Shown: one piece after another, positions 38,706-53,318 of the stretch
Layout of the letters: each line of letters opens with the position of its first letter
Position numbering within the stretch: position 1 is the stretch's first letter
Assembly: GCA_017634595.1 (NCBI GenBank)
Contig: JAGBNC010000015.1
Location: 124,001-188,000, forward strand
Source: Bacteroidales bacterium
GTDB lineage: Bacteria > Bacteroidota > Bacteroidia > Bacteroidales > UBA932
Length of the DNA stretch: 64,000 nt
Reading direction: 5' to 3'
Program-made: the position numbers and the translations under genes
The notes under the pieces: generated by a model
What the model was told of the DNA's origin: nothing
The model's input: the letters and a program-made list of their open reading frames with translations, nothing else
Database searches by the model: none

Positions 38706-38775
38706 TCCGGCAGGGCACCGTTCCTTCAGCCCATAAAACATGGGCAAAGGGCTGAAGGAACGGTGCCCTGCCGGA
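38706..38775. repeat. long intergenic hairpin 1: 27-bp perfect stem, conserved 16-nt loop
   Basis: Left arm 38706-38732 and right arm 38749-38775 are perfect reverse complements. The loop at 38733-38748 is ATAAAACATGGGCAAA. The loop can also form a small inner hairpin with the arm end (GCCCAT/ATGGGC). No T-run follows on either strand. It lies between divergent genes, gmk and fba. Confidence 0.9.
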
Positions 38776-38790
38776 GAAAATATCGAGGCT

Positions 38791-38833
38791 AAGATAGCAA
38801 TTATTTCACAAAGTTGAAAAGAATTGCTATCTT
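38791..38833. promoter_or_regulatory. 12-bp inverted repeat overlapping the fba promoter
   Basis: AAGATAGCAATT (38791-38802) and AATTGCTATCTT (38822-38833) are perfect reverse complements separated by 19 nt. The right half contains most of the -7 box at 38828-38835. Read on the other strand, the left half gives TATCTTAG, one mismatch from a -7 box facing gmk. Confidence 0.5.
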
Positions 38834-38835
38834 TG
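38828..38835 (+). promoter_or_regulatory. -7 promoter box for fba
   Basis: TATCTTTG, full TAnnTTTG match, 40 nt before the ATG at 38876. Confidence 0.65.
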
Positions 38836-38875
38836 TATGATTTAACGGAACGTTAGTTATATCAGTATAAATATT

Positions 38876-39880
38876 ATGAAAGTTTCTTTTAAAGATCTTG
38901 GCCTTGTAAACACCCGCGAGATGTTTGCCAAGGCCGTCAAGGGCGGTTACGCCATCCCCGCATTCAACTTCAACAACATGGAACAGCTGCAGGCCATTAT
39001 CCAGGCTTCTGCAGAGACTAAGTCTCCGGTTATCCTCCAGGTGAGCAAGGGCGCACGCAACTATGCCAACCAGACCCTTCTCCGCTACATGGCCCAGGGA
39101 GCAGTTGAGTATGCCAAGGAACTTGGTTGGAAGCACCCTCAGATCGTCCTTCATCTTGACCACGGCGACAGTTACGAACTCTGCAAGAGCTGTGTCGATT
39201 TTGGTTTCTCTTCCGTTATGATCGACGGTTCCGCTCTCCCTTACGAGGAGAACGTGGCCCTGTCCCGCAAGGTTGTGAACTATGCTCACAAGTATGATGT
39301 TACCGTTGAGGCCGAACTCGGTGTTCTGGCAGGCGTAGAGGACGAGGTCTCTTCTGAGGCCTCCCATTACACCAAGCCTGAGGATGTTATCGACTTCGTC
39401 AAGAAGACCAAGTGCGACTCCCTCGCTATCTCCATCGGTACCAGCCACGGAGCTTACAAATTCAAGCCCGAGCAGTGCACCCGCGACCCCAAGACCGGCA
39501 AGCTCGTTCCGCCGCCCCTTGCTTTCGACGTGCTCAAGGCCATTGAGAAGAAACTCCCCGGATTCCCTATCGTCCTTCACGGATCTTCATCCGTCCCTCA
39601 GGAATATGTTGACATCATCAATGCTCACGGCGGCAAATTGCCCGATGCTATCGGTATTCCCGAAGAGCAGCTCCGCAAAGCGGCCAAGAGCGCAGTTTGC
39701 AAGATCAACATCGACTCCGACAGCCGTCTGGCCATGACTGCTGCCATCCGTCAGCACTTCGACGAATTCCCCGGTCACTTCGATCCCCGTCAGTATCTGA
39801 AGCCTGCCCGTGAGGAGATGAAGAAGATGTACATGCACAAGATTATCAATGTGCTCGGATCCAACGGAAAAGCCCGTTAA
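38876..39880 (+). CDS. fba: class II fructose-bisphosphate aldolase
   Basis: 334 residues. Zinc-dependent cleavage of fructose 1,6-bisphosphate to dihydroxyacetone phosphate and glyceraldehyde 3-phosphate in glycolysis. Class II motifs: HLDHGDS (93-99, catalytic Asp95 and zinc ligand His96), VEAELGVLAGVEDE (144-157), IGTSHGAYKF (187-196) and LHGSSSVP (234-241). It is a single-gene unit: -7 box at 38828 and a strong terminator at 39900. Codon use looks optimised, as expected for a highly expressed gene. Confidence 0.97.
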   Translation: MKVSFKDLGLVNTREMFAKAVKGGYAIPAFNFNNMEQLQAIIQASAETKSPVILQVSKGARNYANQTLLRYMAQGAVEYAKELGWKHPQIVLHLDHGDSYELCKSCVDFGFSSVMIDGSALPYEENVALSRKVVNYAHKYDVTVEAELGVLAGVEDEVSSEASHYTKPEDVIDFVKKTKCDSLAISIGTSHGAYKFKPEQCTRDPKTGKLVPPPLAFDVLKAIEKKLPGFPIVLHGSSSVPQEYVDIINAHGGKLPDAIGIPEEQLRKAAKSAVCKINIDSDSRLAMTAAIRQHFDEFPGHFDPRQYLKPAREEMKKMYMHKIINVLGSNGKAR

Positions 39881-39899
39881 TCAAAAGATTGTTACTAAA

Positions 39900-39934
39900 A
39901 ATAAGCAACCTCGTCCGGGGTTGCTTATTTTTTT
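39900..39934 (+). terminator. Rho-independent terminator of fba
   Basis: AATAAGCAACC, short loop, GGTTGCTTATT, continuing into a run of T. An 11-bp perfect stem. Confidence 0.9.
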
Positions 39935-39946
39935 ATAAAAATTATT

Positions 39947-39954
39947 TACCTTTG
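39947..39954 (+). promoter_or_regulatory. -7 promoter box for corA
   Basis: TACCTTTG, full TAnnTTTG match, located 13 nt after the fba terminator and 63 nt before the corA ATG. Confidence 0.6.
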
Positions 39955-40017
39955 CAGCGCTAACACGAAAGTTCAACCCCTTCCGACAAGTGTGCCGGGA
40001 ACAAAAAGGAAGGCAAG

Positions 40018-40971
40018 ATGATCAGGATTTTCTATCGGAGCGGAGGCGAGATTCTGCTCGCCCAGTCAGAAAAGAAATTTGCTGCCATCGGCAAGGAAAA
40101 TGTGCTTTGGATTGACCTCATCTCCCCGAGCGGAGAGGAAAAACGTGCTACGGAGAGTTTCCTTGATGTGGAAATACAGAGCCGTGCGCAAGCCGAAGAG
40201 ATTGAAAGTTCCTCCCGTTTCTCGGAGGACGACAAGGCTATTTACGCAAACACCAACTTCCTTTCGCCTGCTGACGACGAGATGCTTATGGATCCCGTCT
40301 CCTTCATCCTTACCGATAGGATTCTTGCTACGTTGAGGGAGATTCCGCTGCGTTCCTTCGACACTCTGCAGCGTAAGATTCAGGCTCTCCCGGACCAGTT
40401 CCCTGACGGTTTCACCGTGTTTGTGGAGATCATGGACAAGCGTGTCGATCTGGATGCCGATATTGTGGAGCTGATATCCAAAGATGTCTCCCAGTTCAGC
40501 AAGCGTATCAACCAGCAGGAAGATATCAACGAGGAATTCCTTCTGGATATCAACCAGTTGCAGGAAAACGCCATGTTCGTAAGGGAGAACGTTGTGGATA
40601 AGCAGCGACTGATTTCCAACATAGTCAAGAGCAAACGCTGTCCCAAGAATTCGGATCTCCGCGAAGACTTGTCGGTTATCCTTCAGGATATTGCATCCCT
40701 TATCAACCATACCAATTTCGCTTTCGAAAGGCTGGAATACCTCCAGGACACCGTAGTGGGTCTTATTAATTTGGAGCAGAACAGGATCATGAAGATTTTC
40801 ACGCTTATATCCCTGCTCCTTATGCCTGCGACGCTGGTAGCCAGCTTCTATGGTATGAATGTGACTTTGCCCTTCGCCGAAAAGTGGTGGGCGTGGATAG
40901 CCATCGCCCTTGTGATGGTCTTCCTGGTATTCAGCATCTGGCTGATTTTCAAACACAAGAAAATGTTATGA
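40018..40971 (+). CDS. corA: CorA-type magnesium/cobalt transporter
   Basis: 317 residues. A large cytoplasmic N-terminal domain rich in long helices (about 130-255) is followed by two membrane spans at the C-terminus (LISLLLMPATLVASFYG and IAIALVMVFLVFSIWLIF). The selectivity signature GMN is present at 279-281 between the spans. Members form pentamers that admit Mg2+ or Co2+. It overlaps the galactose epimerase by 4 bases (ATGA). Confidence 0.93.
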   Translation: MIRIFYRSGGEILLAQSEKKFAAIGKENVLWIDLISPSGEEKRATESFLDVEIQSRAQAEEIESSSRFSEDDKAIYANTNFLSPADDEMLMDPVSFILTDRILATLREIPLRSFDTLQRKIQALPDQFPDGFTVFVEIMDKRVDLDADIVELISKDVSQFSKRINQQEDINEEFLLDINQLQENAMFVRENVVDKQRLISNIVKSKRCPKNSDLREDLSVILQDIASLINHTNFAFERLEYLQDTVVGLINLEQNRIMKIFTLISLLLMPATLVASFYGMNVTLPFAEKWWAWIAIALVMVFLVFSIWLIFKHKKML

Positions 40972-42092
40972 AAAAATTGTTTCTCCCTTTTCTTGCCCTC
41001 TTCGTCGCTGCATGCAGCACAGATCAGGGCGTCAAGCTCATTCCTGAACTGGCCTTCCAAACTGAAATCGACGGGAAGGAGGTATCGATTTATACCCTGC
41101 AGGGTGGCGGCCTCACGGCTCAGATTACAAACTATGGCGCCCGCGTAGTCAGCCTCTGGGCTCCCGATAGGGACGGCTGCCTTCGTGATGTGGTGATAGG
41201 ACGTGCAAGCATTGACGATTATATCAACGGAGAAGGGGAGCGCTTCCTCGGTGCTTGTGTTGGGCCTGTGGCAAACCGTATCGGCGGAGCCAGTTTCAGC
41301 CTGGACGGGGTGGAATATGTACTCGACAAGAATGATGGCGACAATACGCTCCACGGCGGCTTCGTGGGCATAGACCGGCTCGTATGGGATGTGGTTGAAC
41401 AGAGCGAGTCCAGCATCAAGTTTCAGGTCGTGCATCCTGACGGTTTGGGCGGCTTTCCCGGCAACAAAACGATCAGCGTCCGCTACACTCTTACGTCGCA
41501 GCATGACCTTAAAGTTGAGTTCGAGGCTACGACTGATGCGCCTACTCCCATAAACCTTGCCCACCACCCGTTCTTCAATCTTAAGGGCAGCGGCGAGGGT
41601 GACATTCTCGGACATGAGATGCAGATTCTGGCGTCTGGGGTGTCAGCTGTAGACGAGAACCTTATTCCGCTCGGCAGGACCGTCATTATTGACGGAGGCC
41701 CGCTGGATTTCCGTAAGCCCAGGCCTATAGGCCAGTTCATCGACGCCGACGACGAGCAGCTTAGGAACGGCCATGGATATGACCACAACTGGATTATCGA
41801 TATTGACGGCAGCAAGGCCATGAGCCTTGACGCCCGCGTACATGACCCTGTGTCGGGACGCATTCTGGAGGTTTATTCCGACCAGCCCGGTCTTCAGTTC
41901 TACAGTGGCAATTTCTTCGGTGACGGCAAGACTGTTGATCAGTTTGGAAATACAGTTGCCTACCGTGGAGCTTTTGCGCTTGAGACCCAGAAATTCCCTG
42001 ATGCTGTGCACTTCCCTCAGTTCCCGGATACTATCCTGCGTCCTGGCGACGTGTATAAGCACACCTGTCTGTACAGGTTGACAGCAGAGTAG
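40968..42092 (+). CDS. galM: aldose 1-epimerase (galactose mutarotase) lipoprotein
   Basis: 374 residues from ATG 40968, in an ATGA overlap with corA. The N-terminus is a signal peptide with lipobox VAAC (Cys16), so this mutarotase acts outside the cytoplasm. Family motifs: ITNYGARVVSLWAPD, GPVANRIGGASFSLDG, NLAHHPFFNL (catalytic His), GHGYDHNWI and AFALETQKFPDAVH (catalytic Glu in LETQ). It interconverts alpha and beta anomers of released sugars. Its stop codon is the first triplet of the left arm of hairpin 4. Confidence 0.93.
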   Translation: MKKLFLPFLALFVAACSTDQGVKLIPELAFQTEIDGKEVSIYTLQGGGLTAQITNYGARVVSLWAPDRDGCLRDVVIGRASIDDYINGEGERFLGACVGPVANRIGGASFSLDGVEYVLDKNDGDNTLHGGFVGIDRLVWDVVEQSESSIKFQVVHPDGLGGFPGNKTISVRYTLTSQHDLKVEFEATTDAPTPINLAHHPFFNLKGSGEGDILGHEMQILASGVSAVDENLIPLGRTVIIDGGPLDFRKPRPIGQFIDADDEQLRNGHGYDHNWIIDIDGSKAMSLDARVHDPVSGRILEVYSDQPGLQFYSGNFFGDGKTVDQFGNTVAYRGAFALETQKFPDAVHFPQFPDTILRPGDVYKHTCLYRLTAE

Positions 42093-42198
42093 CTTATTCC
42101 GGCAGCCGCAGCGCTATGCAGACATTGGCTCCCGAAAAGGGAGGGGACCCACGGAGTGGGGAGGATCTGCAAGGTGCTGCGGCTGCCGGAATAAGCTA
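42090..42198. repeat. long intergenic hairpin 4: 23-bp perfect stem closing a structured insert
   Basis: Left arm 42090-42112 and right arm 42176-42198 are perfect reverse complements. The 63-nt interior has a 5-bp stem (42118-42122 with 42166-42170) and two small hairpins, CTCCC-GAAAA-GGGAG (42129-42143) and CCCAC-GGA-GTGGG (42148-42160). The left arm includes the galM stop codon. It lies between convergent genes and has no T-run. Confidence 0.85.
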
Positions 42199-42211
42199 TG
42201 GGGTGTGAATC

Positions 42212-42760
42212 TTACAACAGAAGGGAGATACCGATTCCGACCAGGATACAGCCGCCTATTATCTCGGCTGCGGGACCAGTGCGGCGCCCTATGGCTTTAC
42301 CACCGCATATGCCGAGAACGGCAGACAGAGCTGTGATGACGAAGACGGAAATCAGCAGCGGAACAAAATCATGGAATGATTGATCTGCAAGAGAGTGCGC
42401 CACGCCCACGGCCAGAGCGTCAATGCTCGTAGCCACGCCGCCCAGCAGAATACCTTTCCAGGCGCTGAGGTCGCGGATCTCTTCATTGCCCTTGGCGCCA
42501 TCCCATATCATTGATCCTCCTACATAAAGAAGCAGAAGGAATCCAAGTATGTGGGATACTCTGATTACATACGATGCCAGCAGGCTCCCGAATGCCCATC
42601 CGGCCCAGAGCAGGCCGGCCTGTATCACGGCAAAACAAAGCGCAACCTTAAGCACCGTGGTCCAGCGCAGGTTCTTCAATGTGATGCTTGAGCACAGTGA
42701 CACCGCGAAGCAGTCTGCGCAAAGCGAAGCGGCAATGAGTATTGCTTCAAGTATTCCCAC
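42212..42760 (-). CDS. mntP: MntP-type manganese efflux pump
   Basis: 182 residues from GTG at 42760. An ATG further upstream at 42808 would lie inside recR and add residues foreign to the family. Six membrane spans, with the conserved ASLCADCFAVSLC near the N-terminus and ATSIDALAVGVAHSL in the middle, whose Asp residues line the Mn2+ path in MntP. It follows recR by 7 nt in the pnuC-recR-mntP unit. I see no yybP-ykoY-type manganese riboswitch, as expected for a gene inside an operon. Confidence 0.9.
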   Translation of the reverse strand: MGILEAILIAASLCADCFAVSLCSSITLKNLRWTTVLKVALCFAVIQAGLLWAGWAFGSLLASYVIRVSHILGFLLLLYVGGSMIWDGAKGNEEIRDLSAWKGILLGGVATSIDALAVGVAHSLADQSFHDFVPLLISVFVITALSAVLGICGGKAIGRRTGPAAEIIGGCILVGIGISLLL

Positions 42761-42767
42761 TGTGGCG

Positions 42768-43379
42768 CTAAGGTTTGAAAATCTGCCTGTTAGTGATTGA
42801 CCGCCCAAGAGTCATTGAGTCAGCGTATTCCAAGTCGTCGCCGAATCCCAGGCCGCGGGCAAGGGTAGTGACCTTGCAGCCTGAGGGAGCAATCTGCCGG
42901 TAAATGTAGAAAGACGTGGTCTCGCCTTCAACGTCTCCAGACAGGGCCAGGATCACTTCTGTGCCGGCAGATACCCGCTCTACAAGCTCTTTGATGGTCA
43001 GATCGGAGGGACCAATTCCGGCAATGGGGGAAATAATGCCCCCCAGAACATGGTACACCCCGTGGTACTGCCCCGTGGCCTCTATGCTCATAACATCGCG
43101 CACACTTTCCACCACACAGATAGTGTCATGATCCCGCTTGGCGTCGGCGCAGATGGAGCAAGTGTCGCCGTCGGAGACCATCATGCATGTCTTGCAGTAG
43201 TGGACAGAGTCGGCCAGCCCTCCGATAGCTGCGGAAAAACGGTGTATCTTGTCCGCCGGCTGCTTGAGCAGGTGGAGGGCAAGGCGAAGGGCGCTCCTTT
43301 TCCCTACACCGGGCAGGGAACTGATGGCCTCCACAGCCTCCTTAAGTGCGGTCGAAGGATAGTTGTCGGCGGAAATCAT
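42768..43379 (-). CDS. recR: recombination mediator RecR
   Basis: 203 residues from ATG 43379 (MISADNYPSTALKEAVEAISSLPGVGKRSA). The further upstream in-frame codons lie within pnuC. It has a helix-hairpin-helix (LPGVGKRSALRLALHLL), a four-Cys zinc finger (CKTCMMVSDGDTCSIC), a Toprim domain (ICVVESVRDVMSIEAT) and the conserved C-terminal TTLARGLGFGDDLEYADSMTL. It loads RecA with RecO/RecF at gaps. It starts within a 4-base overlap with the pnuC stop. Confidence 0.97.
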   Translation of the reverse strand: MISADNYPSTALKEAVEAISSLPGVGKRSALRLALHLLKQPADKIHRFSAAIGGLADSVHYCKTCMMVSDGDTCSICADAKRDHDTICVVESVRDVMSIEATGQYHGVYHVLGGIISPIAGIGPSDLTIKELVERVSAGTEVILALSGDVEGETTSFYIYRQIAPSGCKVTTLARGLGFGDDLEYADSMTLGRSITNRQIFKP

Positions 43380-43996
43380 TCTTCTACAATCACTCCGTTC
43401 TTCTTCCAGTTGATGAACCCAATGACACAGGTGACGATGTAGTATGAATACATCACCGCCATGAGCCATTTGGACTGAGTGGCATAGACGGAAATTATAA
43501 GGATATTGGCAATCACCCAAAGGGGATACTGTTCGATGTGGGAGCGAGACAGCAGCCAGGCTGCCACGAAGCTCAGGACGAGCGAGGTCCCATCAAGCAC
43601 GGGGGCGGGGTCGCTTGTCTTGCTGAGGATGAAAGACACCAAGGGAGCTCCCACCGCTATGATGGCCAGCACGATAAGCAAGCGCTTGCGCTTGAGGGGG
43701 ACTACATGCAGCTGTCCGCCGGCTTCGCCGTCAAGCTTGCGCCAGCGGATAATGCCCAATATTGCAATGACTATCAAATAGATATTCAGTATGACCTGAG
43801 CCCAGAGGGGAGCCCACTGCGCCCCCTCGTGGTTGGTGGAGGCGACTATAAGGGCGGTGGTGGAGGTTGCTATGCTGAAATACCACATCCATTTGTGCTG
43901 GAAGATCTGCAAAGTCATGTATGTTACGCCGCAGAAAAGTGATATGGCCTGGATCCAGGAACTGTTGGCGCTAAGCCAGGTTACGATATTTTCCAT
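43376..43996 (-). CDS. pnuC: PnuC-type nicotinamide riboside transporter
   Basis: 206 residues from ATG 43996; the longer frame begins upstream of the promoter box. About seven membrane spans. Family features include WYFSIATSTTALIVAS, the ILNIYLIVIAILGIIRW block and VIANILIISVYATQSKW near the end. PnuC imports vitamin B3 ribosides by facilitated diffusion, trapped by phosphorylation inside. No kinase gene such as nadR is adjacent, so specificity is by family only. No riboswitch is possible here because the leader is only about 5 nt. Confidence 0.88.
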   Translation of the reverse strand: MENIVTWLSANSSWIQAISLFCGVTYMTLQIFQHKWMWYFSIATSTTALIVASTNHEGAQWAPLWAQVILNIYLIVIAILGIIRWRKLDGEAGGQLHVVPLKRKRLLIVLAIIAVGAPLVSFILSKTSDPAPVLDGTSLVLSFVAAWLLSRSHIEQYPLWVIANILIISVYATQSKWLMAVMYSYYIVTCVIGFINWKKNGVIVEE

Positions 43997-44000
43997 TCTG

Positions 44001-44008
44001 CAAAAATA
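44001..44008 (-). promoter_or_regulatory. -7 promoter box for pnuC-recR-mntP
   Basis: The complement reads TATTTTTG (TAnnTTTG), ending 4 nt before the ATG at 43996. Confidence 0.6.
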
Positions 44009-44054
44009 GCAATAAAAAGTGATATATAAGTTTTCGTAAATCAAATAATTTGTC

Positions 44055-44062
44055 TAAATTTG
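44055..44062 (+). promoter_or_regulatory. -7 promoter box for rpsA
   Basis: TAAATTTG, full TAnnTTTG match, with a leader of about 65-70 nt that contains the small hairpin GGGAA-ACTG-TTCCC at 44074-44087. That leader could be a site of S1 autoregulation (inference). Confidence 0.6.
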
Positions 44063-44135
44063 CGCGCCTTTTAGGGAAACTGTTCCCGCGGGCACAAAAC
44101 ATAATGTCAAATTACTAATTCAAATTATTGAAACA

Positions 44136-45917
44136 ATGGCAAATGAAGAAAAAAGACTGAATGCATCCATTCCCCCCGAGGAGTTTGATTGGGATGCTTT
44201 CGAAAGCGGTTCCGAAGTTTATGGAACATCCGAAAAAGCGGAGATAGACGCCGCTTATGACAAAACCCTTGCAAGGATCGACGCAAACGAGACCAAGGAA
44301 GGTGAAGTTACCGCCATCAACAAGCGCGAAGTGGTGGTTTCCGTCGGTGGAAAGAGCGAGGGTGTCATCATGGCAACCGAGTTCCGTTACAACCCCGACC
44401 TCAAGGTGGGCGACAAGGTGGAAGTCCTTGTAGAGTCTCCTGAGGACAAGAAGGGCCAGATCGTCCTTTCCCACAAGAAGGCACGCGCCCTCAAGTCTTG
44501 GGACAGGGTCAACGAGGCATTCGAGAACGACGAGGTGGTAAAGGGTTTCGTGAAGACCCGCACCAAGGGCGGAATGATCGTGGACGTTTTCGGCATCGAG
44601 GCTTTCCTCCCCGGCAGTCAAATAGATATTAAGCCTATCCGTGATTACGACCAGTTCGTTAACCAGACGATAGACTTCAAGATCGTTAAGATCAACAATG
44701 AGTACCGTAACGTGGTCGTTTCCCACAAGGCTCTGCTCGAGGCTGAGCAGGAGGCCAAGAGGGCTGAGCTCATCGGCAAGCTCGAGAAGGGTCAGGTCCT
44801 CGAGGGCGTGGTCAAGAACATCACCAACTACGGCGTATTCGTGGACCTCGGCGGCGTGGACGGTCTGATCCACATCACCGACCTCAGCTGGGGCCGCGTC
44901 AACCATCCCGAGGAGATCGTCTCCCTGGATCAGAAGATCAAGGTGGTCGTGCTCGACTTCAACGAGCAGCAGAAGCGTATCGCCCTCGGTCTCAAGCAGC
45001 TTACTCCTCATCCTTGGGACAACCTGGATCCCAACCTCAAAGTTGGCGACAAGGTCAAGGGTAAGGTTATCCTTCTTGCCGACTACGGCGCATTCATCGA
45101 GATTGAGCCCGGCGTGGAAGGTCTCGTGCATGTCAGCGAAATGTCCTGGAGCCCCAGGCTTCACAGCGCTCAGGAATTCCTGAAGCAGGGACAGGAAGTT
45201 GAGGCACAGGTGCTCAGCATCGACCGCGAGGCCCGCAAGATCTCCCTCGGTCTCAAGCAGCTCACTCCCAACCCTTGGGAGAACATCCGCGAGAAGTATC
45301 CCGTCGGCAGCCGTCATACCGCTACCGTGCGCAATGTCACCAACTTCGGCGTATTTGCCGAGCTTGAGGACGGCGTAGAAGGCCTTGTTCACATCAGCGA
45401 TCTGAGCTGGAACAAGATCAAGCACCCTTCAGAGGTTGTTAACTCCGGTGACACCATCGATGTCCAGATTCTTGACTTCGACGAGGCCAACCACAAACTC
45501 AGCCTCGGACACAAGCAGCTCACCACCAACCCTTGGGACGAGGTCGAGGCCAAGTTCCCTGTGGGATCAGTAGTAGAGGGAACTATCGCTTCCGTGACCG
45601 ACAAGGGCGCAATGATCACCCTGGCCGACGGTGCTGAGGGCTTTGCCTTCAACCGTGAGATTGTCAAGGAAGACGGTAAGCCTGCAGTCGCCGGTGAGAC
45701 CCTTCCGTTCAAGGTGGTCGAACTCCGCCGCAGCACCCGCCGCATCATCCTCAGCCACCTGCGTACTTACCAGGAGGTAAAGGAGAAGGCCGCTGTCAGC
45801 GAGGCCGAGTCCACCAAGAAGGCCGTCAAGAAAGTCAACGCCAACGTGGAGAAGACCACTCTCGGTGACATCGACGCTCTTGCAGCCCTCAAGGAGAAAC
45901 TCGAGAAAGGCGAGTAA
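44136..45917 (+). CDS. rpsA: 30S ribosomal protein S1
   Basis: 593 residues with six S1 RNA-binding repeats. The first two are divergent and bind the ribosome (EGEVTAINKREVVVSVGGKSEG, VKGFVKTRTKGGMIVDVFG). Repeats 3-5 are canonical (GVVKNITNYGVFVDLGGVDGLIHITDLSW, GKVILLADYGAFIEIEPGVEGLVHVSEMSW, ATVRNVTNFGVFAELEDGVEGLVHISDLSW). The sixth is weaker (GTIASVTDKGAMITLADGAEGF). S1 helps recruit mRNAs, important in this phylum where Shine-Dalgarno sequences are scarce. The stop overlaps the rnz start (TAATG). Confidence 0.97.
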   Translation: MANEEKRLNASIPPEEFDWDAFESGSEVYGTSEKAEIDAAYDKTLARIDANETKEGEVTAINKREVVVSVGGKSEGVIMATEFRYNPDLKVGDKVEVLVESPEDKKGQIVLSHKKARALKSWDRVNEAFENDEVVKGFVKTRTKGGMIVDVFGIEAFLPGSQIDIKPIRDYDQFVNQTIDFKIVKINNEYRNVVVSHKALLEAEQEAKRAELIGKLEKGQVLEGVVKNITNYGVFVDLGGVDGLIHITDLSWGRVNHPEEIVSLDQKIKVVVLDFNEQQKRIALGLKQLTPHPWDNLDPNLKVGDKVKGKVILLADYGAFIEIEPGVEGLVHVSEMSWSPRLHSAQEFLKQGQEVEAQVLSIDREARKISLGLKQLTPNPWENIREKYPVGSRHTATVRNVTNFGVFAELEDGVEGLVHISDLSWNKIKHPSEVVNSGDTIDVQILDFDEANHKLSLGHKQLTTNPWDEVEAKFPVGSVVEGTIASVTDKGAMITLADGAEGFAFNREIVKEDGKPAVAGETLPFKVVELRRSTRRIILSHLRTYQEVKEKAAVSEAESTKKAVKKVNANVEKTTLGDIDALAALKEKLEKGE

Positions 45918-46720: not shown

Positions 46721-46733
46721 TATATTTACGCCC

Positions 46734-47660
46734 GTGAAAAGAATAGTTGTACTTATTTGCGCACTGGTGCTGTTCTTTGCAGCGGCATCAGGCCCATACG
46801 AGAATTATATACAGAAGTACTCTTCGGTAGCAGTATCGGAGATGCATCGTTCAGGCGTACCTGCTTCTATCACTCTGGCCCAGGGGCTTGTGGAATCTGC
46901 GGCAGGGCAGTCTTCGCTGGCGGTCAAGGCCAACAACCATTTCGGTATAAAATGTCACTCCGACTGGAAGGGGAAGAAGACCTATCGTGACGATGACAAG
47001 GCCAATGAGTGCTTCAGGGTGTACTCCAATGCCGCTGCATCATTTAAGGATCATTCTGATTTCCTGCGTTACCAGGACCGTTATAAATTCCTGTTCGACC
47101 TTGATCCTACTGATTATAAGGCCTGGGCCAGGGGACTCAAGAAGGCAGGCTATGCCACCGACCGCCTGTATGCCGATAAACTCATAAAGGTGATTGAAGA
47201 TTATGAGTTGTATCGTTTCGATACAGAGGCGGGGGAGATCCCCGAGTCACCAAATCAGATCGAGGCTCCTGTGGAGCTTGCACCGGTAGCTGCCAGGGAA
47301 GAGTATCGTTTCTCGCTCTCCCGCAAGGTGTTTAAAGTCAATGGTGTGCCTTGTGTGTACGCTGTGCAGGGGGATACTTACCAGTCAATTGCTCAGTCGA
47401 ACGGTTTATTTGCAAACGAGATTCTTCGCTACAATGATGCTACGGGCAGCGACCAGCCTGCTGCTGGCGACGTGGTGTTCCTGCAGGCCAAGAAGAAGCG
47501 TGCTGCGCGTGGAATGGATAAGTATATTGCCGGCGAGGACGGTGTTTCACTTCGTGACATTGCCCAGCGCTTCGGCGTGAAGCTGTCGGCCATCAAGCGC
47601 TTCAACAATCTCCCCGATGATTATGTGCCCCTGGAGGGCGATACAATACGTCTCCGCTGA
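46734..47660 (+). CDS. GH73 N-acetylglucosaminidase with LysM domains
   Basis: 308 residues from GTG 46734, chosen because a signal peptide follows at once (KRIVVLICALVLFFAAASG). A TATATTTA element just upstream is one mismatch from the -7 consensus. The glucosaminidase domain covers about 22-160, with the probable catalytic Glu54 (AQGLVESAAGQSSLAVKANNHFGIK). Two LysM domains bind peptidoglycan: about 205-250 (YAVQGDTYQSIAQSNGLFANEILRYN) and about 260-305 (YIAGEDGVSLRDIAQRFGVKLSAIKRFNNLP). A cell-wall hydrolase in the periplasm. It overlaps mltG by one base (TGATG). Confidence 0.9.
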   Translation: MKRIVVLICALVLFFAAASGPYENYIQKYSSVAVSEMHRSGVPASITLAQGLVESAAGQSSLAVKANNHFGIKCHSDWKGKKTYRDDDKANECFRVYSNAAASFKDHSDFLRYQDRYKFLFDLDPTDYKAWARGLKKAGYATDRLYADKLIKVIEDYELYRFDTEAGEIPESPNQIEAPVELAPVAAREEYRFSLSRKVFKVNGVPCVYAVQGDTYQSIAQSNGLFANEILRYNDATGSDQPAAGDVVFLQAKKKRAARGMDKYIAGEDGVSLRDIAQRFGVKLSAIKRFNNLPDDYVPLEGDTIRLR

Positions 47661-48670
47661 TGAAAAACATCTTGAAAATCCTTGCCCTGGTGCTTGGCGC
47701 CGTGGCTATACTTGTCGGATTTAATTGGCTGCGTGACAATAAGATGTCTAACTTCTACGGGACGGCGGACTTGTATGTTACTGAGTCCAATACACCTGAT
47801 GACGTGATAGAGTCCCTAAAGAGTCAGCTGAAAATACTCAGCGAGAGGCGCTTGAGGAAGGTGTTTGCTCAGAAGGATGTGGCTTCATACATTAAGCCGG
47901 GCCATTATCGCGTGAGCAGCTCCAGTACCAGCGTGTATGTGGCGCGTATGCTGAATAATGGTTGGCAAAGCCCCGTAAGCTTTACCTTGGCTGGTTCTTT
48001 GAGAAGCAGGGAAGAGATAGCCCGCAAGATCTCCCGCCAGCTTGATCTGGATTCTGCATCGGTGTACGCGGCTCTTCAAGATTCCGCTTTGATGGCGGCG
48101 TATGATGCCACCCCTGATACTTTCTTCGAGGCCCTTTACCCTGCTACTTATGAATTGTACTGGACAGCTAGCATCCAAGACGTGCTGGATCGGTGCAAGA
48201 AGGCTTCGGACAACTTCTGGACGGACGACAATCTGGTAAAGGCGGCACGTGCCGGACTCTCCCGCAGGCAGGCCGTGATCCTCGCTTCGATTGTGAAAGG
48301 GGAGTCTCACTATAAGCCGGAACTTGCCAAGATTGCCGGTGTTTACCTTAACCGTATTGCCCGCAATATGCTTCTGCAGGCCGATCCTACCGTCGCCTAC
48401 TGTTATGATTATAAGTTGAATCGTATCCTGTTCAGGCACTTGGAATTCGACTCACCATATAATACATATAAGTATCCCGGGTTGCCTCCCGGGCCGATAT
48501 GCGTCCCCGACAGAGAGTATCTGGAGGCTGTGATCAATCCCGATTACGGCGGGGGCAATTTGTATTTCTGCGCCAGCAAGCATCTGGACGGTACACATGT
48601 GTTCGCCAAGACCTTGGAGGCGCATAACCGTAATGCAAAAGCTTTCCAAGATGCAATCAGTAAACGTTGA
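47660..48670 (+). CDS. mltG: endolytic murein transglycosylase MltG
   Basis: 336 residues, one N-terminal membrane span (about 4-23) and a periplasmic YceG domain. The active region reads LASIVKGESHYKPELAKIAGVYLNRI with Glu215, followed by LLQADPTVAY and YNTYKYPGLPPGPICVPD, all typical of MltG, which cuts nascent glycan strands and sets their length. The first Glu of the common EKE triplet is Lys here, but the second is kept. The overlap with the GH73 gene suggests a joint role in cell-wall turnover. Hairpin 2 begins 2 nt after its stop. Confidence 0.92.
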   Translation: MKNILKILALVLGAVAILVGFNWLRDNKMSNFYGTADLYVTESNTPDDVIESLKSQLKILSERRLRKVFAQKDVASYIKPGHYRVSSSSTSVYVARMLNNGWQSPVSFTLAGSLRSREEIARKISRQLDLDSASVYAALQDSALMAAYDATPDTFFEALYPATYELYWTASIQDVLDRCKKASDNFWTDDNLVKAARAGLSRRQAVILASIVKGESHYKPELAKIAGVYLNRIARNMLLQADPTVAYCYDYKLNRILFRHLEFDSPYNTYKYPGLPPGPICVPDREYLEAVINPDYGGGNLYFCASKHLDGTHVFAKTLEAHNRNAKAFQDAISKR

Positions 48671-48672
48671 AA

Positions 48673-48742
48673 TACTAAGTTAATATCCTTCCGGGGACCA
48701 TAAAACATGGGAAAAGGTCCCCGGAAGGATATTAACTTAGTA
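48673..48742. repeat. long intergenic hairpin 2: 27-bp perfect stem, conserved 16-nt loop
   Basis: Left arm 48673-48699 and right arm 48716-48742 are perfect reverse complements. The loop at 48700-48715 is ATAAAACATGGGAAAA, identical to hairpin 1 except for one base. The arms are unrelated to those of hairpin 1. The outer half is AT-rich, the inner half GC-rich. No T-run follows. It lies between mltG and the M16 protease, both on the plus strand. Confidence 0.92.
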
Positions 48743-48773
48743 ATAAAATTGTTGAATTTTAATAATTGTTTAT

Positions 48774-48781
48774 TATATTTG
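48774..48781 (+). promoter_or_regulatory. promoter for the M16 protease
   Basis: TATATTTG -7 box with a TTG at 48752-48754 placed 19 nt upstream, matching the Bacteroides -33/-7 spacing. The start codon is 22 nt downstream. The -33 element is only 9 bp from hairpin 2. Confidence 0.65.
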
Positions 48782-48803
48782 CGAAAATTATTATCGAAAA
48801 ACG

Positions 48804-51623
48804 ATGAAGAAAGTTTTGTTTTTCCTTGCGGCTCTCATTGGAGCCGCCATCGTGGGAAACGCACAGACTGCGCTTCCCAATGATCCTGCCGTGAAGGTTG
48901 GCAAGCTCGACAACGGAATGACTTATTACATCCGTCACAACGACAAGCCGGCCCAGCGTGCTGAGTTCTACCTTGCCACTCACGTGGGTGCCATTCAGGA
49001 GACCCCCGATCAGGATGGTCTTGCGCACTTCCTTGAGCACATGTGCTTCAACGGACTTAAGAACCTTCCGGGCAAGCAGATGCTGGAGTATCTTCAGAGC
49101 ATCGGCGCCGAGTTCGGCCGCAACATCAATGCTTCTACCGGCGTTGAGTCCACACAGTATATGCTGAACAACATTCCTGTGACTCGTGAGGGCATCATCG
49201 ATACCTGCCTCCTCGTGATGCATGATTATTCCCACTTCGTGCTCTGTGAGCAGGAAGAAATCGACAGCGAAAGGGGAGTCATCCTTGAGGAGCGCCGTAC
49301 CCGCCGCAACGCTTCATGGCGTATGTATGAGCAGAACAAGCAGTATATGTACAAAGGATCGAAGTTCGCCGACTGCTCCCTTATCGGAAGCCAGGAGAAC
49401 CTTGAGACCTTCAAGCGCGAGAGCTTGGTTAATTTCTATCAGACCTGGTATCGTCCTGACAATCAGGCACTCATCGTTGTCGGTGATGTGGATCCCGACC
49501 AGATTCTCAGCAAGATTCAGAAACTCTTTGCCGATATTCCCGCCCCTGTCAATCCCAAGGCAAAGGATGTCATAAAGGTTCCGGACAACGTAGAGCCTAT
49601 AGTCGGTATCGTCACCGATCCTGAGACACCCAATTCCGAGGTCACCATTCTCTGGAAGAGCGAGCCCCTCCCCAGGGAACTCAACAATACAGATGTTGCC
49701 CTGCTGACCAATATTCTTAAGGATATCATCGGCAACGTGATGAGCGAACGTTTCCAGGATATTACCTCCAAACCTGATGCACCATTCCTCAACGGCGTGC
49801 TGATGTGCTCCCAGATATGCGAGACCTGCGACGTTGTGCTCGGCGATGTGGCCTTCAAGGAAGGCGAATTCGCTCCCGCCCTCAAAGCTTTCTATACCGA
49901 GGTTGAGAAGATGAAACGTTATGGTTTCACCGACAGCGAGGTGCAGAGGGCCAAGGACGAAATCCTGAGCGGCTATGAGAAGCGTGCAGAAGGTGCTGAA
50001 AGCCGTAAGAATTCCGAGTTCGTATATCCTCTTATCAGCAACTTCTTCAACAATACTCCTTACATGGATCCGGCCACCGCGCTTCAGGTTGTAAAGTCTG
50101 TGCTCCAGATGGTTCCTGCCGCTGCAATCAATCAGGTGGTTCCCCAGCTCATCACCGATGAGAATATGGTGGTTATCTACAACGGCCCCAAGAAAGAAGG
50201 TCTTGTCAACCCCACTGAGGAGCAGCTTCTGAGCATCATCAACGATGTCAAGGGCTCCGAAATCGCCGCCAACGCGGAGGAGCAGATTGCTTCTGAATTC
50301 GTAGATCCTTCCACTCTTAAGGGCTCCAAAGTCAAGAAGACTCATCAGCTTATCAAGGGCATCACCGAGTGGACACTCCGCAACGGCGTGAAAGTCGCCT
50401 TCCTGCCCACTGAGTTCAAGAAGGACCAGGTGCTTATCCGCCTTACTATGGATGGTGGCTCTTCCCTTATTCCTACTGAGGATCTGCCTTCATTTGAAGA
50501 CAATCTCTGGAGCCTCTGGCAGAGCAACAGCGGTATTTCCAAGTTTAATTCCGCTACCTTCAGCAAGATGCTTGCCGGAAAGCAGGTTAACATGGCCCCC
50601 TACATCAACTCTATCCGTCATGGCATCTCCGGCAGCTGCCAGCCCAAGGATCTTGAGACAGCCCTGCAGCTTCTCTATCTTAACTTCGTTGATCCCCGCT
50701 TCGACGCTGATGAGTACAATGTGGGCAAGCAGCAGATATCCGCTGTGCTTCCCAATCTGCTTCAGACTCCTAATTTCAAGTTCCAGCGTGAGCTGACCAA
50801 GACCATCTACGGTGACAATCCCCGCGCCATTGTCATTGATGATGACGTTCTCGCCAAGGCCGACGTGGCTGTGCTCGAGCGCAACTACAGGAAGCTCTTC
50901 AAGGACGCTGCAGGCGCCAAGGTATATATCGTCGGCAATGTGGATCCTGAGACCCTCAAGCCTCTGGTGGAGAAGTATATAGGCTCTCTGCCTAAGGGAC
51001 GCAAGGCTCTCAAGTACGTTGATACTGGCGAGCGCTTTGTCCAGGGCGATGTGGCCAATGAGTTCAAGGCTGACATGCAGACACCTATGACCACTGTCTT
51101 CCAGCTTTATAACAATTACTCCGACAAGTACAGCGTGGCACGTGAGGTCAACCTCGATGCAGCCAAGTCGATACTCGACATGATCTACACCGATACTCTC
51201 CGTGAGTCCGAAGGCGGTACCTATGGCGCTTCAGTGAGCACTTCCATTACTAAGTATCCTGTGGACAGGTCTGTCATCCAGGTGTACTTCACCACCAATC
51301 CTTCTTCATCTGCTAAATTGCGTGAGATGGCGGTGGCTGAGCTTAAGAAGTTTGCCCAGAACGGTCCTACCGAGGAGCAGCTTACCCGCGTCAAGGAGAA
51401 TTTCAAGAAGAATCTTCCCGAGAGCCGTATCCAGAACAATCACTGGATGAACGAGATTTCTTACTTCTACAACTACGGCGGCATTGATTACGATGCCGAG
51501 TACGAGGCTGCTGTGAATGCACTGTCGGCAGACAGCATCCGTGAGGCAGTGGCTTCAGTGCTTGCTTCCGGCAACCTTGCAGAGGTGGTTATGTCTCCTG
51601 ACAAAACTGCAGAGAGAGAATAG
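48804..51623 (+). CDS. exported M16 family zinc protease (two-lobed)
   Basis: 939 residues with a signal peptide (LFFLAALIGAAIVGNAQ). The N-terminal lobe carries the inverted zinc motif HFLEH (75-79, DGLAHFLEHMCFNG) and the downstream Glu in ERGVILEERR. Four M16-type domains follow, the C-terminal half (VKVAFLPTEFKKDQVLIRL onward) lacking a zinc site, as in pitrilysin-type proteases. It ends with the TLRESEGGTYGASVS block typical of the substrate-binding lobe. Probably degrades peptides in the periplasm. It has its own promoter and no co-directional neighbour. Confidence 0.94.
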   Translation: MKKVLFFLAALIGAAIVGNAQTALPNDPAVKVGKLDNGMTYYIRHNDKPAQRAEFYLATHVGAIQETPDQDGLAHFLEHMCFNGLKNLPGKQMLEYLQSIGAEFGRNINASTGVESTQYMLNNIPVTREGIIDTCLLVMHDYSHFVLCEQEEIDSERGVILEERRTRRNASWRMYEQNKQYMYKGSKFADCSLIGSQENLETFKRESLVNFYQTWYRPDNQALIVVGDVDPDQILSKIQKLFADIPAPVNPKAKDVIKVPDNVEPIVGIVTDPETPNSEVTILWKSEPLPRELNNTDVALLTNILKDIIGNVMSERFQDITSKPDAPFLNGVLMCSQICETCDVVLGDVAFKEGEFAPALKAFYTEVEKMKRYGFTDSEVQRAKDEILSGYEKRAEGAESRKNSEFVYPLISNFFNNTPYMDPATALQVVKSVLQMVPAAAINQVVPQLITDENMVVIYNGPKKEGLVNPTEEQLLSIINDVKGSEIAANAEEQIASEFVDPSTLKGSKVKKTHQLIKGITEWTLRNGVKVAFLPTEFKKDQVLIRLTMDGGSSLIPTEDLPSFEDNLWSLWQSNSGISKFNSATFSKMLAGKQVNMAPYINSIRHGISGSCQPKDLETALQLLYLNFVDPRFDADEYNVGKQQISAVLPNLLQTPNFKFQRELTKTIYGDNPRAIVIDDDVLAKADVAVLERNYRKLFKDAAGAKVYIVGNVDPETLKPLVEKYIGSLPKGRKALKYVDTGERFVQGDVANEFKADMQTPMTTVFQLYNNYSDKYSVAREVNLDAAKSILDMIYTDTLRESEGGTYGASVSTSITKYPVDRSVIQVYFTTNPSSSAKLREMAVAELKKFAQNGPTEEQLTRVKENFKKNLPESRIQNNHWMNEISYFYNYGGIDYDAEYEAAVNALSADSIREAVASVLASGNLAEVVMSPDKTAERE

Positions 51624-51631
51624 ACAATAAG

Positions 51632-52024
51632 CTATTTCTTACCTTTATAGGCCGTACCTTTTACGTGAAGGATTACAGGCTTGTCAAGGTCGGAAATATA
51701 GACGGTGAGGGTCTTATCGAAAGGATAAGGCCCTTCGTCGTTTGTGTAGGTGACATCAATGCTTCCTTTGGCGGCGGGAGCGATATCAGTTCTGGTCCAC
51801 TTGACAGAAGTGCAGCCGCAGGTCGTGATGACTGCGAAGATATTGAGCGGCTTGTCGCCTGTATTGGTAACTTCGAAACTGCAGCTTACGGCCCCGTCTT
51901 TGGTATTGATTTTGCCAAAGTCGTACACGGTGCGGTCGAAGCGTGCCGCGCCAAAATCTTTCTGCGCTGCAGCGGGGAGGGCTGCAAGGACGCAGAGGAA
52001 CAGAAAGATGATGTGCTTTTTCAT
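51632..52024 (-). CDS. DUF1573 family exported protein
   Basis: 130 residues from ATG 52024 with a signal peptide (HIIFLFLCVLAALPAAAQ). One Ig-like DUF1573 domain: FDRTVYDFGKINTKDGAVSCSFEVTNTGDKPLNIFAVITTCGCTSVKW, then VTYTNDEGPYPFDKTLTVYI. The TTCGCT motif is characteristic of the family, which is abundant in Bacteroidetes and has no settled function. A further upstream ATG is possible, but the -7 box TATATTTG lies between it and this start. It is divergent from the ferredoxin gene. Confidence 0.85.
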   Translation of the reverse strand: MKKHIIFLFLCVLAALPAAAQKDFGAARFDRTVYDFGKINTKDGAVSCSFEVTNTGDKPLNIFAVITTCGCTSVKWTRTDIAPAAKGSIDVTYTNDEGPYPFDKTLTVYISDLDKPVILHVKGTAYKGKK

Positions 52025-52029
52025 GGCTG

Positions 52030-52037
52030 CAAATATA
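52030..52037 (-). promoter_or_regulatory. -7 promoter box for the DUF1573 gene
   Basis: The complement reads TATATTTG, ending 5 nt before the ATG at 52024. Confidence 0.6.
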
Positions 52038-52080
52038 AAAATAAATTCTCTTAAGGCTTGATTATTCAAATTCAATACCG

Positions 52081-52088
52081 TAAATTTG
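52081..52088 (+). promoter_or_regulatory. -7 promoter box for the ferredoxin gene
   Basis: TAAATTTG, full TAnnTTTG match, 25 nt before the ferredoxin ATG at 52114. Confidence 0.6.
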
Positions 52089-52113
52089 CGATGTTTAAAT
52101 TTTTAAAAGAATT

Positions 52114-52287
52114 ATGGCTTACAAAATTTCTGCAGACACCTGTGTTGCTTGCGGCACCTGTCAGGGCGAATGCCCTACCGGAGCTATCAAAGAAGGCGAT
52201 GTTTACTCAATCGATCCTGATATTTGTATAGATTGTGGCACTTGTGCCGATGCTTGCCCGATGGGCGCTATTACACCGGGAGAATAA
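52114..52287 (+). CDS. 2[4Fe-4S] ferredoxin, 57 residues
   Basis: A small complete gene from ATG 52114 to TAA 52287. It encodes two clostridial-type cluster motifs, CVACGTCQGECP (10-21) and CIDCGTCADACP (38-49), with the internal two-fold repeat normal for this family. A low-potential electron carrier in the cytoplasm, fitting an anaerobe; likely partners are pyruvate:ferredoxin oxidoreductase or Rnf, neither of which is in the window. The next gene starts 1 nt after its stop, so the two are probably co-transcribed although functionally unrelated. Confidence 0.95.
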   Translation: MAYKISADTCVACGTCQGECPTGAIKEGDVYSIDPDICIDCGTCADACPMGAITPGE

Positions 52288-52288
52288 G

Positions 52289-53230
52289 ATGCGTAAATTG
52301 ATCTTAGGGGCCTTTACGGCCCTTTTTGCTTTCTGTGCGGCGGCGCAGAACGTCAAACCCAATGTGACCCTGAAGCTTTATCCTGAAGGGCAGACTGTTG
52401 ACAAGGGTATTGTGGAAAACGGAGTGGCAGTGACTCTCGGCCCTTGTGATGATAACGGACTTCGCGGTGATGTGGAAATGAGCGGAGACGGCAATATGGG
52501 CAATATCAATGACCCGTATATCGATATCTATCTTCCCAAGAAGGGCAACGGTCAGATGCTCGTATGCTGTCCTGGCGGAGGTTATAGATACTGTTCCTCC
52601 TATAATGAGGGTACCCGCGTGGCGGCATGGTGCCTTAAGCACGGGATCGCTTGCTGCGTGGTTCTGTACCGCATGCCCAACCATCATTGCAAAGTGCCTC
52701 TGACCGATGTGCAGAACGCATTTCGTTACTGCCGTGCTCATCAGGCCGAATGGGGCATCAAGCAGCTTGGAATCATCGGGTTCTCTGCCGGAGGTCATCT
52801 GGCGGCAAGCGCTTCCACTCTGTGGGTGGATGCAGTCACCAGACCCGATTTCAGTGTGCTGGTTTACCCTGTCATAACCCTTGAGCAGGACGTGACTCAT
52901 AAGGGCACCCGTTCCAATCTTACCGACAACAAGGTGGACCTCGTGACTTACTATTCACTTGAAAATCAGGTTAATGCATCGACTCCCCAGACTCTTCTCA
53001 TCCTTTGCCAGGACGATAAGGTAGTCCCCCCGGAAAACAGCCTTCGCTACTATTTCAAGATGATCAAGTGCAAGGTCCCCGGAGAGCTGCATATACTCAC
53101 TGACGGCGGCCATGGCTGGGGCTTTACTACTCCCGAATATGGTCATGACAAGCTCAGTCCCGGGCAGAGGAATGACTTCTTCCGCATCCTTGAACGCTGG
53201 CTTGCCGACCGCAGGGCAGAGATGAATTGA
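52289..53230 (+). CDS. exported alpha/beta-hydrolase (esterase)
   Basis: 313 residues from ATG 52289 with a signal peptide (LILGAFTALFAFCAAAQ). Catalytic features: oxyanion motif CCPGGGYRYCS, nucleophile elbow GFSAGGH, acid in LCQDDKVVP and His in GGHGWGF. This corresponds to the BD-FAE/acetyl-xylan-esterase-like group common in Bacteroidetes, which removes acyl groups from carbohydrates. The actual substrate is unknown and no glycosidase is adjacent. Upstream in-frame codons lie in the ferredoxin gene and were not used. Hairpin 3 begins 14 bp after its stop. Confidence 0.88.
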   Translation: MRKLILGAFTALFAFCAAAQNVKPNVTLKLYPEGQTVDKGIVENGVAVTLGPCDDNGLRGDVEMSGDGNMGNINDPYIDIYLPKKGNGQMLVCCPGGGYRYCSSYNEGTRVAAWCLKHGIACCVVLYRMPNHHCKVPLTDVQNAFRYCRAHQAEWGIKQLGIIGFSAGGHLAASASTLWVDAVTRPDFSVLVYPVITLEQDVTHKGTRSNLTDNKVDLVTYYSLENQVNASTPQTLLILCQDDKVVPPENSLRYYFKMIKCKVPGELHILTDGGHGWGFTTPEYGHDKLSPGQRNDFFRILERWLADRRAEMN

Positions 53231-53244
53231 TTTTTTAGCAATAC

Positions 53245-53318
53245 GTAAATAAGCCGTTGTGCTCCGGGGCCCGTTAAGCAAGGGAAAAAGGGCCCCCGGA
53301 GCACAACGGCTTATTTAC
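53245..53318. repeat. long intergenic hairpin 3: 28-bp stem with one bulge, related 17-nt loop
   Basis: Left arm 53245-53272 pairs with right arm 53290-53318, with a single extra C in the right arm. The loop at 53273-53289 is GTTAAGCAAGGGAAAAA, clearly related to the loops of hairpins 1 and 2. The arms are locus-specific. It lies between convergent genes (esterase and LacI regulator), with no T-run. Confidence 0.9.

Follow-up and report, generated by a model that had tools for sequence, protein, structure and literature searches.

Long hairpins in the window

The window, that is, the whole stretch of 64,000 nucleotides analysed here, carries four long hairpins (Table 1). Sites 1–3 are type I elements, with a nearly perfect stem of about 27 bp around a conserved core of 16–17 nt. 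The fourth hairpin belongs to a second family, type II, which has the same architecture with a larger structured head of about 40–80 nt. In both types, the conserved head sits on a stem of roughly 24–33 bp.

Table 1. Positions and features of the hairpin elements in the window
Element	Position	Strand	Arms	Core or head	Stem	Core sequence	Score (bits)	Context
Type I, site 1	38706..38775	+	38706-38732, 38749-38775	38733-38748 (16 nt)	perfect, 27 bp	ATAAAACATGGGCAAA	79.3	guanylate kinase gene (-), fructose-bisphosphate aldolase gene (+)
Type I, site 2	48673..48742	+	48673-48699, 48716-48742	48700-48715	perfect, 27 bp	ATAAAACATGGGAAAA	88.8	starts 3 nt past the stop of a YceG-like gene
Type I, site 3	53245..53318	+	53245-53272, 53290-53318	53273-53289	arms 28/29 nt, one bulged base	GTTAAGCAAGGGAAAAA	64.6	between convergent genes
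Type II (IIa)	42090..42198	+	42090-42122, 42166-42198	42123-42165 (43 nt, two hairpins)	3 mismatches

A scan of the whole window for ungapped hairpins (stem at least 14, at most one mismatch, loop below 60) returned these four and no others with a stem of at least 20 bp. Their DNA-fold z-scores range from -9.9 to -13.4. Coordinates and scan confirm the three hairpins described in the first-pass annotation, with stems of 27–28 bp that are perfect or carry one bulge. An inner mini-hairpin (CCAT/ATGG), which had also been proposed, does not form when sites 1 and 2 are folded at minimum energy.

A dispersed family with copy-specific stems

As had been predicted, the type I hairpins belong to a family that recurs in many copies, with a constant core and with arms specific to each copy. 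There are 46 distinct sites in the genome of origin (2.59 Mb) and 54 in the sister genome G041, and the family is present in 22 of the 400 genomes searched within the genus. That the loops are alike beyond chance is borne out by the core pattern (at most two mismatches), which matches 30 times in the genome of origin versus 5 times when read backwards; by inspection, long hairpins enclose 26 of the 30 matches.

The arms had been considered completely different between loci apart from a shared TCCGG. This proved wrong for the 12 bp adjoining the core, which carry the consensus CCCTCCGGGGCCC at about 0.3–1.7 bits per position. Agreement falls to chance level in the outer arm alone, where it is 0.23–0.31 between different copies, compared to 0.95–0.96 between the two arms within one copy. 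The consensus is based on 99 of 134 elements, those with a core matching a regular expression. Among these 99, aligned from the core, no position outside the arms is informative (maximum 0.29 bits), although such an alignment, with its varying arm lengths, would blur a tag located at the foot of the stem. Since only the short head and the inner arm are shared, repeat finders that rely on sequence can miss elements of this kind. The GC content is 0.507 in outer arms versus 0.382 in the adjacent flanks. Two palindromes extending to the end of a contig (L249 and L268) were left out of the mismatch counts, the divergence of 33 orthologous pairs, the arm-match recount and the type I empty-site comparison, and are included in arm agreement, gene context, stop distances, the first orthologue comparison and GC content.

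For type II, 26 loci were collected and a stem was assigned in 23. These elements also have perfect copy-specific arms. Four type II heads in genome G044 are identical or one base apart on arms that are almost wholly different, and in a sister genus type II arms are shared among copies. One whole type II element, searched against six genomes, gave matches covering the core with at most about 7 bases of the arm; its outer arms gave nothing beyond one match of 15 nt where arm and core join (E = 0.64).

Orthologous and empty sites

Outer arms are more alike between orthologues than between non-orthologues (p = 3e-5), indicating a tendency for sites to be inherited from a common ancestor. Pairs were accepted as orthologous if the flank alignment came within 40 bp of the element. 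In 33 such pairs, divergence is equal for the arms and the adjacent 30 bp of unpaired flank (0.65 vs. 0.66; unrelated baselines 0.52 and 0.51), near-flank alignments of this length being noisy. An early impression in this analysis that arms evolve faster than flanks was dropped, as matched baselines led to these equal levels. The two arms inside the elements of these pairs differ by only 4.3%.

In 17 of the 33 pairs, the two cores point in opposite directions (18 of 34 with one contig-end artefact kept); nearly all genomes are drafts in which short inverted repeats may be mis-oriented, so that an assembly error is possible for inversions. In the pair G023/G128, an inverted core lies between identical arms, and the flanks are 98.9% identical (97.8% over 3084 bp). 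Among type II orthologues, the head is inverted in one of three pairs. The related locus L077 is occupied at site 1, with the core inverted, and at site 2, where the element is at the same place with a conserved inner arm and a different outer arm. It lacks an element at the place corresponding to site 3, and at the site of the type II element it has a copy in which the head is inverted and the changes in the arms are coupled.

Empty sites in relatives, which had been anticipated, were found for site 1 (L080–L084, L087, L110, L114, L126; L106 has a 1.4-kb insertion at this position) and for site 2 (L078–L089 and L093). In the empty sites inspected, neither arm is present, and the inspected ones at site 1, site 2, L177, L232 and L147 lack a long hairpin. 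No target-site duplication is apparent by eye, with flanks far from identical and the target undefined. As both arms are missing from the inspected empty sites, the arms did not arise by copying of the flanks; and since some relatives (G111 and the sister genus) have arms shared between copies, these belong to the element.

Capture of arms from elsewhere is not shown in the parts of the genomes compared. When 154 arms were matched against these parts, hits near a known core excluded, 207 matches were obtained versus 150–199 in three shuffled controls (at least 17 nt: 32 vs. 5–21; at least 20 nt: 10 vs. 1–4). Among the best 10 of the 207 matches, five of the six loci with the longest matches are family members (L303, L222, L264, L299, L295); the remainder of these ten are 15–16 nt long.

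Gene context and stem mismatches

Elements lie at a median of 10 nt past a predicted stop codon (quartiles 4–28, n = 110 stop-facing sides), and many are therefore probably transcribed. A rough ORF caller placed 33 of 134 elements within predicted ORFs (left out) and 6 at an ORF edge; by the same rough calls, stems extend over a predicted stop codon, by 1–7 nt on nine sides and by 32–34 nt on two. Convergent genes flank 26 of the 134 elements, divergent genes 16. The core is oriented randomly relative to tandem genes (26 vs. 27). On gene-end-facing sides, TTTT occurs within the next 8 nt in 2 of 82 cases and five or more T in 5, with a T fraction of 0.27.

In 16 aligned sequences, double changes occur at 26 of 27 stem pairs (164 double-changed cells, 5 one-sided). 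Type I stems contain 158 mismatches among 4222 pairs in 154 elements (G.T 55, A.C 57, transversions 46). They show no preference for G.U over A.C, nor do the 60 elements read in gene-sense orientation (27 against 20, p = 0.38), as judged with weak positive controls: the control with 44 ordinary terminators (G.T 5, A.C 9) failed because mismatches were too few, and tRNAs gave 35 usable acceptor pairs with G.U 2 and A.C 0. In type II, the mismatches tend towards G.T (9 vs. 5 in 17 long-armed elements; 10 vs. 5 in all 23).

Probable template switching and alternative explanations

We consider it probable that the stems are kept perfect at the DNA level by template switching in inverted repeats. 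The arms would fold or meet during replication, and the polymerase would switch template between them. A mutation in one arm would be copied into the other arm or erased, and a double template switch would turn the head round. The arms would then drift in lock-step at about the flank rate until copies share no outer-arm sequence, and the head would stay recognisable, so that old dispersed copies would appear as distinct hairpins sharing one loop. The head may be conserved for binding of a protein, for a function of the hairpin or for an ability to disperse. Arm homogenisation together with spacer inversion is a signature of template switching as outlined in PMC8604942 and PMC8794818. Spacer inversion is seen here in about half of the orthologous pairs, and arm homogenisation without wobble preference in type I, with type II leaning to G.T. 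A DNA copying process is indicated because the stems covary almost completely, in lock-step and at flank divergence, and because type I has no wobble preference. RNA compensation is a poor explanation of the arms; the pattern observed is the one that DNA template switching within inverted repeats predicts. Snap-back copying around a fixed core, one option of the first-pass annotation, is supported. Counting against lock-step drift at the flank rate is the pair G023/G042, in which the 28-bp arms are identical at flanks of 92.8% identity; in this one pair, there are fewer arm changes than the flanks suggest. The G.T lean of type II and the inversion of only one of its three orthologous pairs also weigh against template switching.

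If the stem had to pair in a transcript, compensatory mutations would be selected one after another. The strong covariation, the conserved head, the probable transcription of many elements and the G.T lean of type II would fit such a structured RNA. The missing wobble preference in type I, the random orientation relative to tandem genes, the inversion between orthologues and arms as diverged as the flanks argue against it, and at gathering score Rfam had no match in the window and only a tRNA in 14 loci. We thus regard strict compensatory RNA evolution, as proposed in the first-pass annotation, as unlikely. Intrinsic terminators with ordinary turnover are very unlikely: placement just past stop codons or between convergent genes would suit them, as would the site downstream of fba in L077, which ends in a T-run, but U-tracts are nearly absent from the gene-end-facing sides, some elements lie between divergent genes, and termination needs no conserved head.

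A mobile head might insert at the apex of locus-specific hairpins that already exist, a choice of target comparable to that of insertion sequences that enter REP palindromes. The four G044 copies fit this, as does the fba site in L077, where the core lies inside a terminator-like stem and relatives have simple terminators, and also the second type II site of L082, where the hairpins of L081, L085 and L088 are simple and unrelated. We nevertheless find it improbable, given empty sites without a long hairpin, the lack of any head-less stem of at least 20 bp in the window, and arms common to several copies in G111 and in the sister genus. The near-identical G044 heads on different arms also fit heads that move without arms, and it is conceivable but rather doubtful that heads are mobile and that each move remakes the stem, one arm serving as template for the other, with two unrelated head families sharing this route. 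Each new copy would then be born perfect with a new stem, via a single-arm intermediate and a possibly error-prone process. That an insertion duplicated the neighbouring DNA as inverted copies about the core, as had also been suggested, is highly improbable: copy-specific, perfectly inverted arms and stems overlapping a predicted stop codon would agree with it, but it is contradicted by the armless empty sites, by the GC difference between arms and flanks, by arms shared between copies and by the type II outer arms, which were unmatched in six genomes save for the 15-nt junction.

Relation to known repeats

The hairpin family is known in kind and unusual in degree; the literature searched, mostly titles and abstract openings, contained no description of it. 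REP/BIME elements are outlined in PMC3733652 as small multi-copy intergenic palindromes, mostly near gene 3' ends, at tandem or convergent genes. The present elements resemble them (GTAG and CGTC super-families) as intergenic palindromes near gene 3' ends, but they are longer (about 65–110 bp), their outer stem is not conserved between copies, and there is no conserved GTAG or CGTC tag base outside the arms. A REP/RAYT link was rejected since Y1 transposase matches do not track the hairpin family: there are none in G111 (13 model matches for the element) and five in G045 (no element), and the best element match at 26 Y1 loci has E = 0.11. The elements are similar to MITEs in being short, non-coding and dispersed with inverted repeats, but these repeats differ between copies and a search of the Y1 family found no partner transposase.

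Mitochondrial mobile hairpin elements, judging by the titles of PMC2800124 and PMC4478555, are also dispersed intergenic hairpins, but these repetitive hairpin-forming elements are organellar and the present ones bacterial. The pattern also resembles that of template-switched quasi-palindromes, with identical arms, changes in both arms and a turned spacer, described in the available parts of PMC8604942 and PMC8794818 for yeast coding genes and RNA genes. Here, unlike there, the pattern recurs in more than a hundred dispersed elements of one bacterial genus.

The family provides more than a hundred natural replicates in which template switching and head inversion can be measured in bacteria. 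Stem covariation is usually taken as proof of RNA-level selection. The hairpins warn that such covariation, taken by itself, can be the trace of a mutational process.

Hairpin families in the window

The three intergenic hairpins claimed in the first-pass annotation were confirmed (sites 1–3 in the table). Their arms are 27–29 nt, and we refer to them as type I elements: near-perfect stems with copy-specific arms and a conserved core of 16–17 nt at the tip. A fourth hairpin has a larger structured head and represents a second family (type II). An ungapped scan of the 64-kb window revealed no further stem of at least 20 bp. All four are much more stable than their shuffled sequences, whether folded as single-stranded DNA or as RNA (z-scores −9.9 to −13.9; 200 shuffles each).

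Long hairpins in the window
Feature	Coordinates	Family	Structure
Site 1	38706–38775	type I	perfect stem
Site 2	48673–48742	type I	perfect stem
Site 3	53245–53318	type I	one bulge in the arms
Type II element	42090–42198	type II	43-nt head folding into two small hairpins

Copy number and distribution of type I elements

The core pattern occurs at 30 places in the source genome (G000); reading the pattern backwards gives 5. A covariance model (R1) built from 16 copies gave 61 matches in this genome, which represent 46 distinct sites because several sites match on both strands; in the sister genome G041, 60 matches represent 54 sites. Many of the relatives searched are rumen or gut Bacteroidales MAGs. 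Between 2 and 19 matches were obtained in G042, G043 (the same as G023), G044, G046, and G048, and none in G045 and G047; further searches gave 21 (G218), 15 (G072), 13 (G111), 9 (G299), and 1 (G128). With the best 12 candidates of each genome scored, 22 of 400 genomes of the genus had a match. In the order (14 candidates scored each), the source genome was the only one of 344 to match. The search thus supports the proposal of a multi-copy family. Several contigs start or stop inside or directly beside elements (loci L062, L065, and L076; contigs G023:C22, G042:C29, G299:C49, G072:C104, and G072:C197). It is thus likely that draft assemblies are interrupted at the hairpins and that the copy numbers given may be too low.

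Anatomy of type I elements

Among 134 elements (139 hairpins prior to orientation filtering), stems range from 21 to 45 bp (24–30 bp in 115) and are free of defects in 51. Two of the longest (L249 and L268) are palindromes reaching the contig end; they are probable snap-back assembly artefacts of the draft genome and were handled as such in subsequent analyses. Conservation decreases outward: in 99 elements, most core positions carry 1–2 bits and the first 12 arm positions about 0.3–1.7 bits, with little farther out. At arm positions 13–24, elements of one genome are identical at chance level (0.23–0.31), compared to 0.954–0.960 between the two arms of one element (G000, G041, and G023). Outer-arm sequence is common to few copy pairs (17 of 780 in G000 and 17 of 1275 in G041 score at least 8; shuffled, 0). 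Type I-like copies with shared arms occur in G111.

Empty and orthologous sites

Empty sites, which had been anticipated in close relatives, were found. At site 1, the sister-genome locus L077 carries an element with inverted core; by eye, its left arm is alignable with many differences and its right arm apparently partly lost. Judged likewise, site 1 is empty in L080–L084, L087, L110, L114, and L126. In L106, this position, flanked by the guanylate kinase gene and the aldolase gene, holds an insertion of about 1.4 kb with a DDE-transposase gene (PF01609, 2026–3213, minus strand). Site 2 is occupied in L077, with conserved inner and different outer arm, and is empty in L078–L089 and L093; L077 has no element at the position corresponding to site 3 (all by eye). 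At the fructose-bisphosphate aldolase terminator (window 39897–39932), L077 (5755–5832) has a type I core in a terminator-like stem with a T-run behind it; by eye, other relatives have simple terminators there. A stem similar to that of L077 occurs in L309 of G072, with no orthology implied.

A flank screen listed 74 element/locus rows, which are redundant and include some with the other locus occupied. Among the rows listed, clear cases are L177 (G048) versus L010 (G000), with flank identity of 83–84%, L232 versus L075, and L147 versus L154; in these, the empty allele contains nothing of either arm. The arms therefore came with the element or formed later, and the suggestion that they arose by an insertion duplicating flanking DNA in inverted orientation was not borne out at these sites.

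Pairs of elements from different genomes were defined by their flanks (34, or 33 without one artefact). Of the 33, 17 have their cores in opposite orientations. In the most telling pair (G023 vs. G128), flanks are 98.9% identical and arms identical, with the core reversed. Outer arms are more alike between orthologous than between unrelated elements (p = 3e-5), which indicates that sites tend to go back to a common ancestor.

Coupled evolution of the arms

Across 16 aligned copies, both-sided changes affect 26 of 27 pairs (164 cells vs. 5 one-sided changes). Selected RNA pairing should tolerate G.U but not A.C. Type I stems contain 55 G.T, 57 A.C, and 46 transversion mismatches (158 in 4222 pairs of 154 elements). 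Where exactly one neighbouring gene end reads into the element (60 elements), G.T and A.C number 27 and 20 (p = 0.38). Positive controls were too few to calibrate this wobble test (44 ordinary terminators: 5 G.T, 9 A.C; 35 tRNA acceptor pairs: 2 G.U, 0 A.C). With respect to tandem genes, the core points either way about equally often (26 vs. 27), and U-tracts are rare (TTTT at 2 of 82 gene-end-facing sides). In the 33 orthologous pairs, identity is 0.65 for arms and 0.66 for the adjacent 30 bp (unrelated baselines 0.52 and 0.51), and the arms within an element differ by just 4.3%. Arm divergence is thus on a par with that of unpaired intergenic DNA, with the two arms changing in step. If only selection for pairing were at work, slower arm change would be expected; under arm-to-arm copying it would not. 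In one counter-case, a single pair (G023/G042, flanks 92.8% identical), the arms had not changed at all.

Template switching between short inverted repeats is described, in the parts of the sources consulted, as homogenising arms and inverting spacers (PMC8604942) and as able to create and maintain perfect stems (PMC8794818). These published outcomes match the lock-step arms and head inversion observed here, alongside the lack of wobble preference in type I and the flank-like arm divergence. We infer that template switching during replication is the probable cause of this pattern.

The type II family

Besides the window copy, type II elements occur in L231, L240, L048, L074, L255, L088, L147, and some of L338–L386. 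The exact head motif was found in five of six genomes tested (source genome 8, G041 7, G013 5, G016 3, G045 3, G047 0), the backwards motif in none of the six. Within the order, 3 of 344 genomes contain the head motif: the source genome plus two from a sister genus. Heads are structured and about 40–80 nt long, and arms are mostly copy-specific. A stem was assigned in 23 of 26 copies, 17 with arms of 21–33 bp; the five G013 copies have short arms. Seven of the 17 long-armed copies are mismatch-free, and the others have 9 G.T, 5 A.C, and 4 transversion mismatches. The surplus of G.T is slight (9 of 14) but points toward the RNA side, which weakens the template-switching reading a little.

In the orthologous pair L359/L360, the 43-nt head is identical, with flanks 75–82% identical. 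At the window site, L077 has an inverted head and coupled arm changes; a third pair (L346/L352) has kept its orientation. The four copies read from sister genus g19 (G630, one contig; G711) have much arm sequence in common, which makes the arms look like an ancestral part of the element. Two G016 copies match at 19 of 27 arm positions. In G044, four of five heads are within one base of each other, on unrelated arms. Such near-identical heads on different arms within one genome are the hardest observation to account for: the heads may change slowly while their arms drift, or they may move independently of the arms.

At one intergenic site between convergent genes, where L082 has its second type II element, L081, L085, and L088 from related species carry unrelated simple hairpins, which we read as fast turnover of 3′ hairpins.

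Relation to known repeats

The position just after stop codons resembles that of REP elements, as far as described in the part of the source consulted (PMC3733652). Unlike in these, neither a REP tag nor an associated Y1 transposase was found for the family. A description of the family was not found in the literature searched, mostly by titles and abstract openings. We file it under extragenic palindromic repeats, as a new variant with an unusual mode of evolution.

L064/L070 (G023:C10:13484–13637) comprises two back-to-back elements in opposite orientation; this site is also occupied in G041 and in G042, where one copy is intact and the other apparently partial. In L161 and L177, elements end about 2 and 12 nt upstream of the ATG of the next gene, and L161 has a promoter-like motif directly at the other side of the element.
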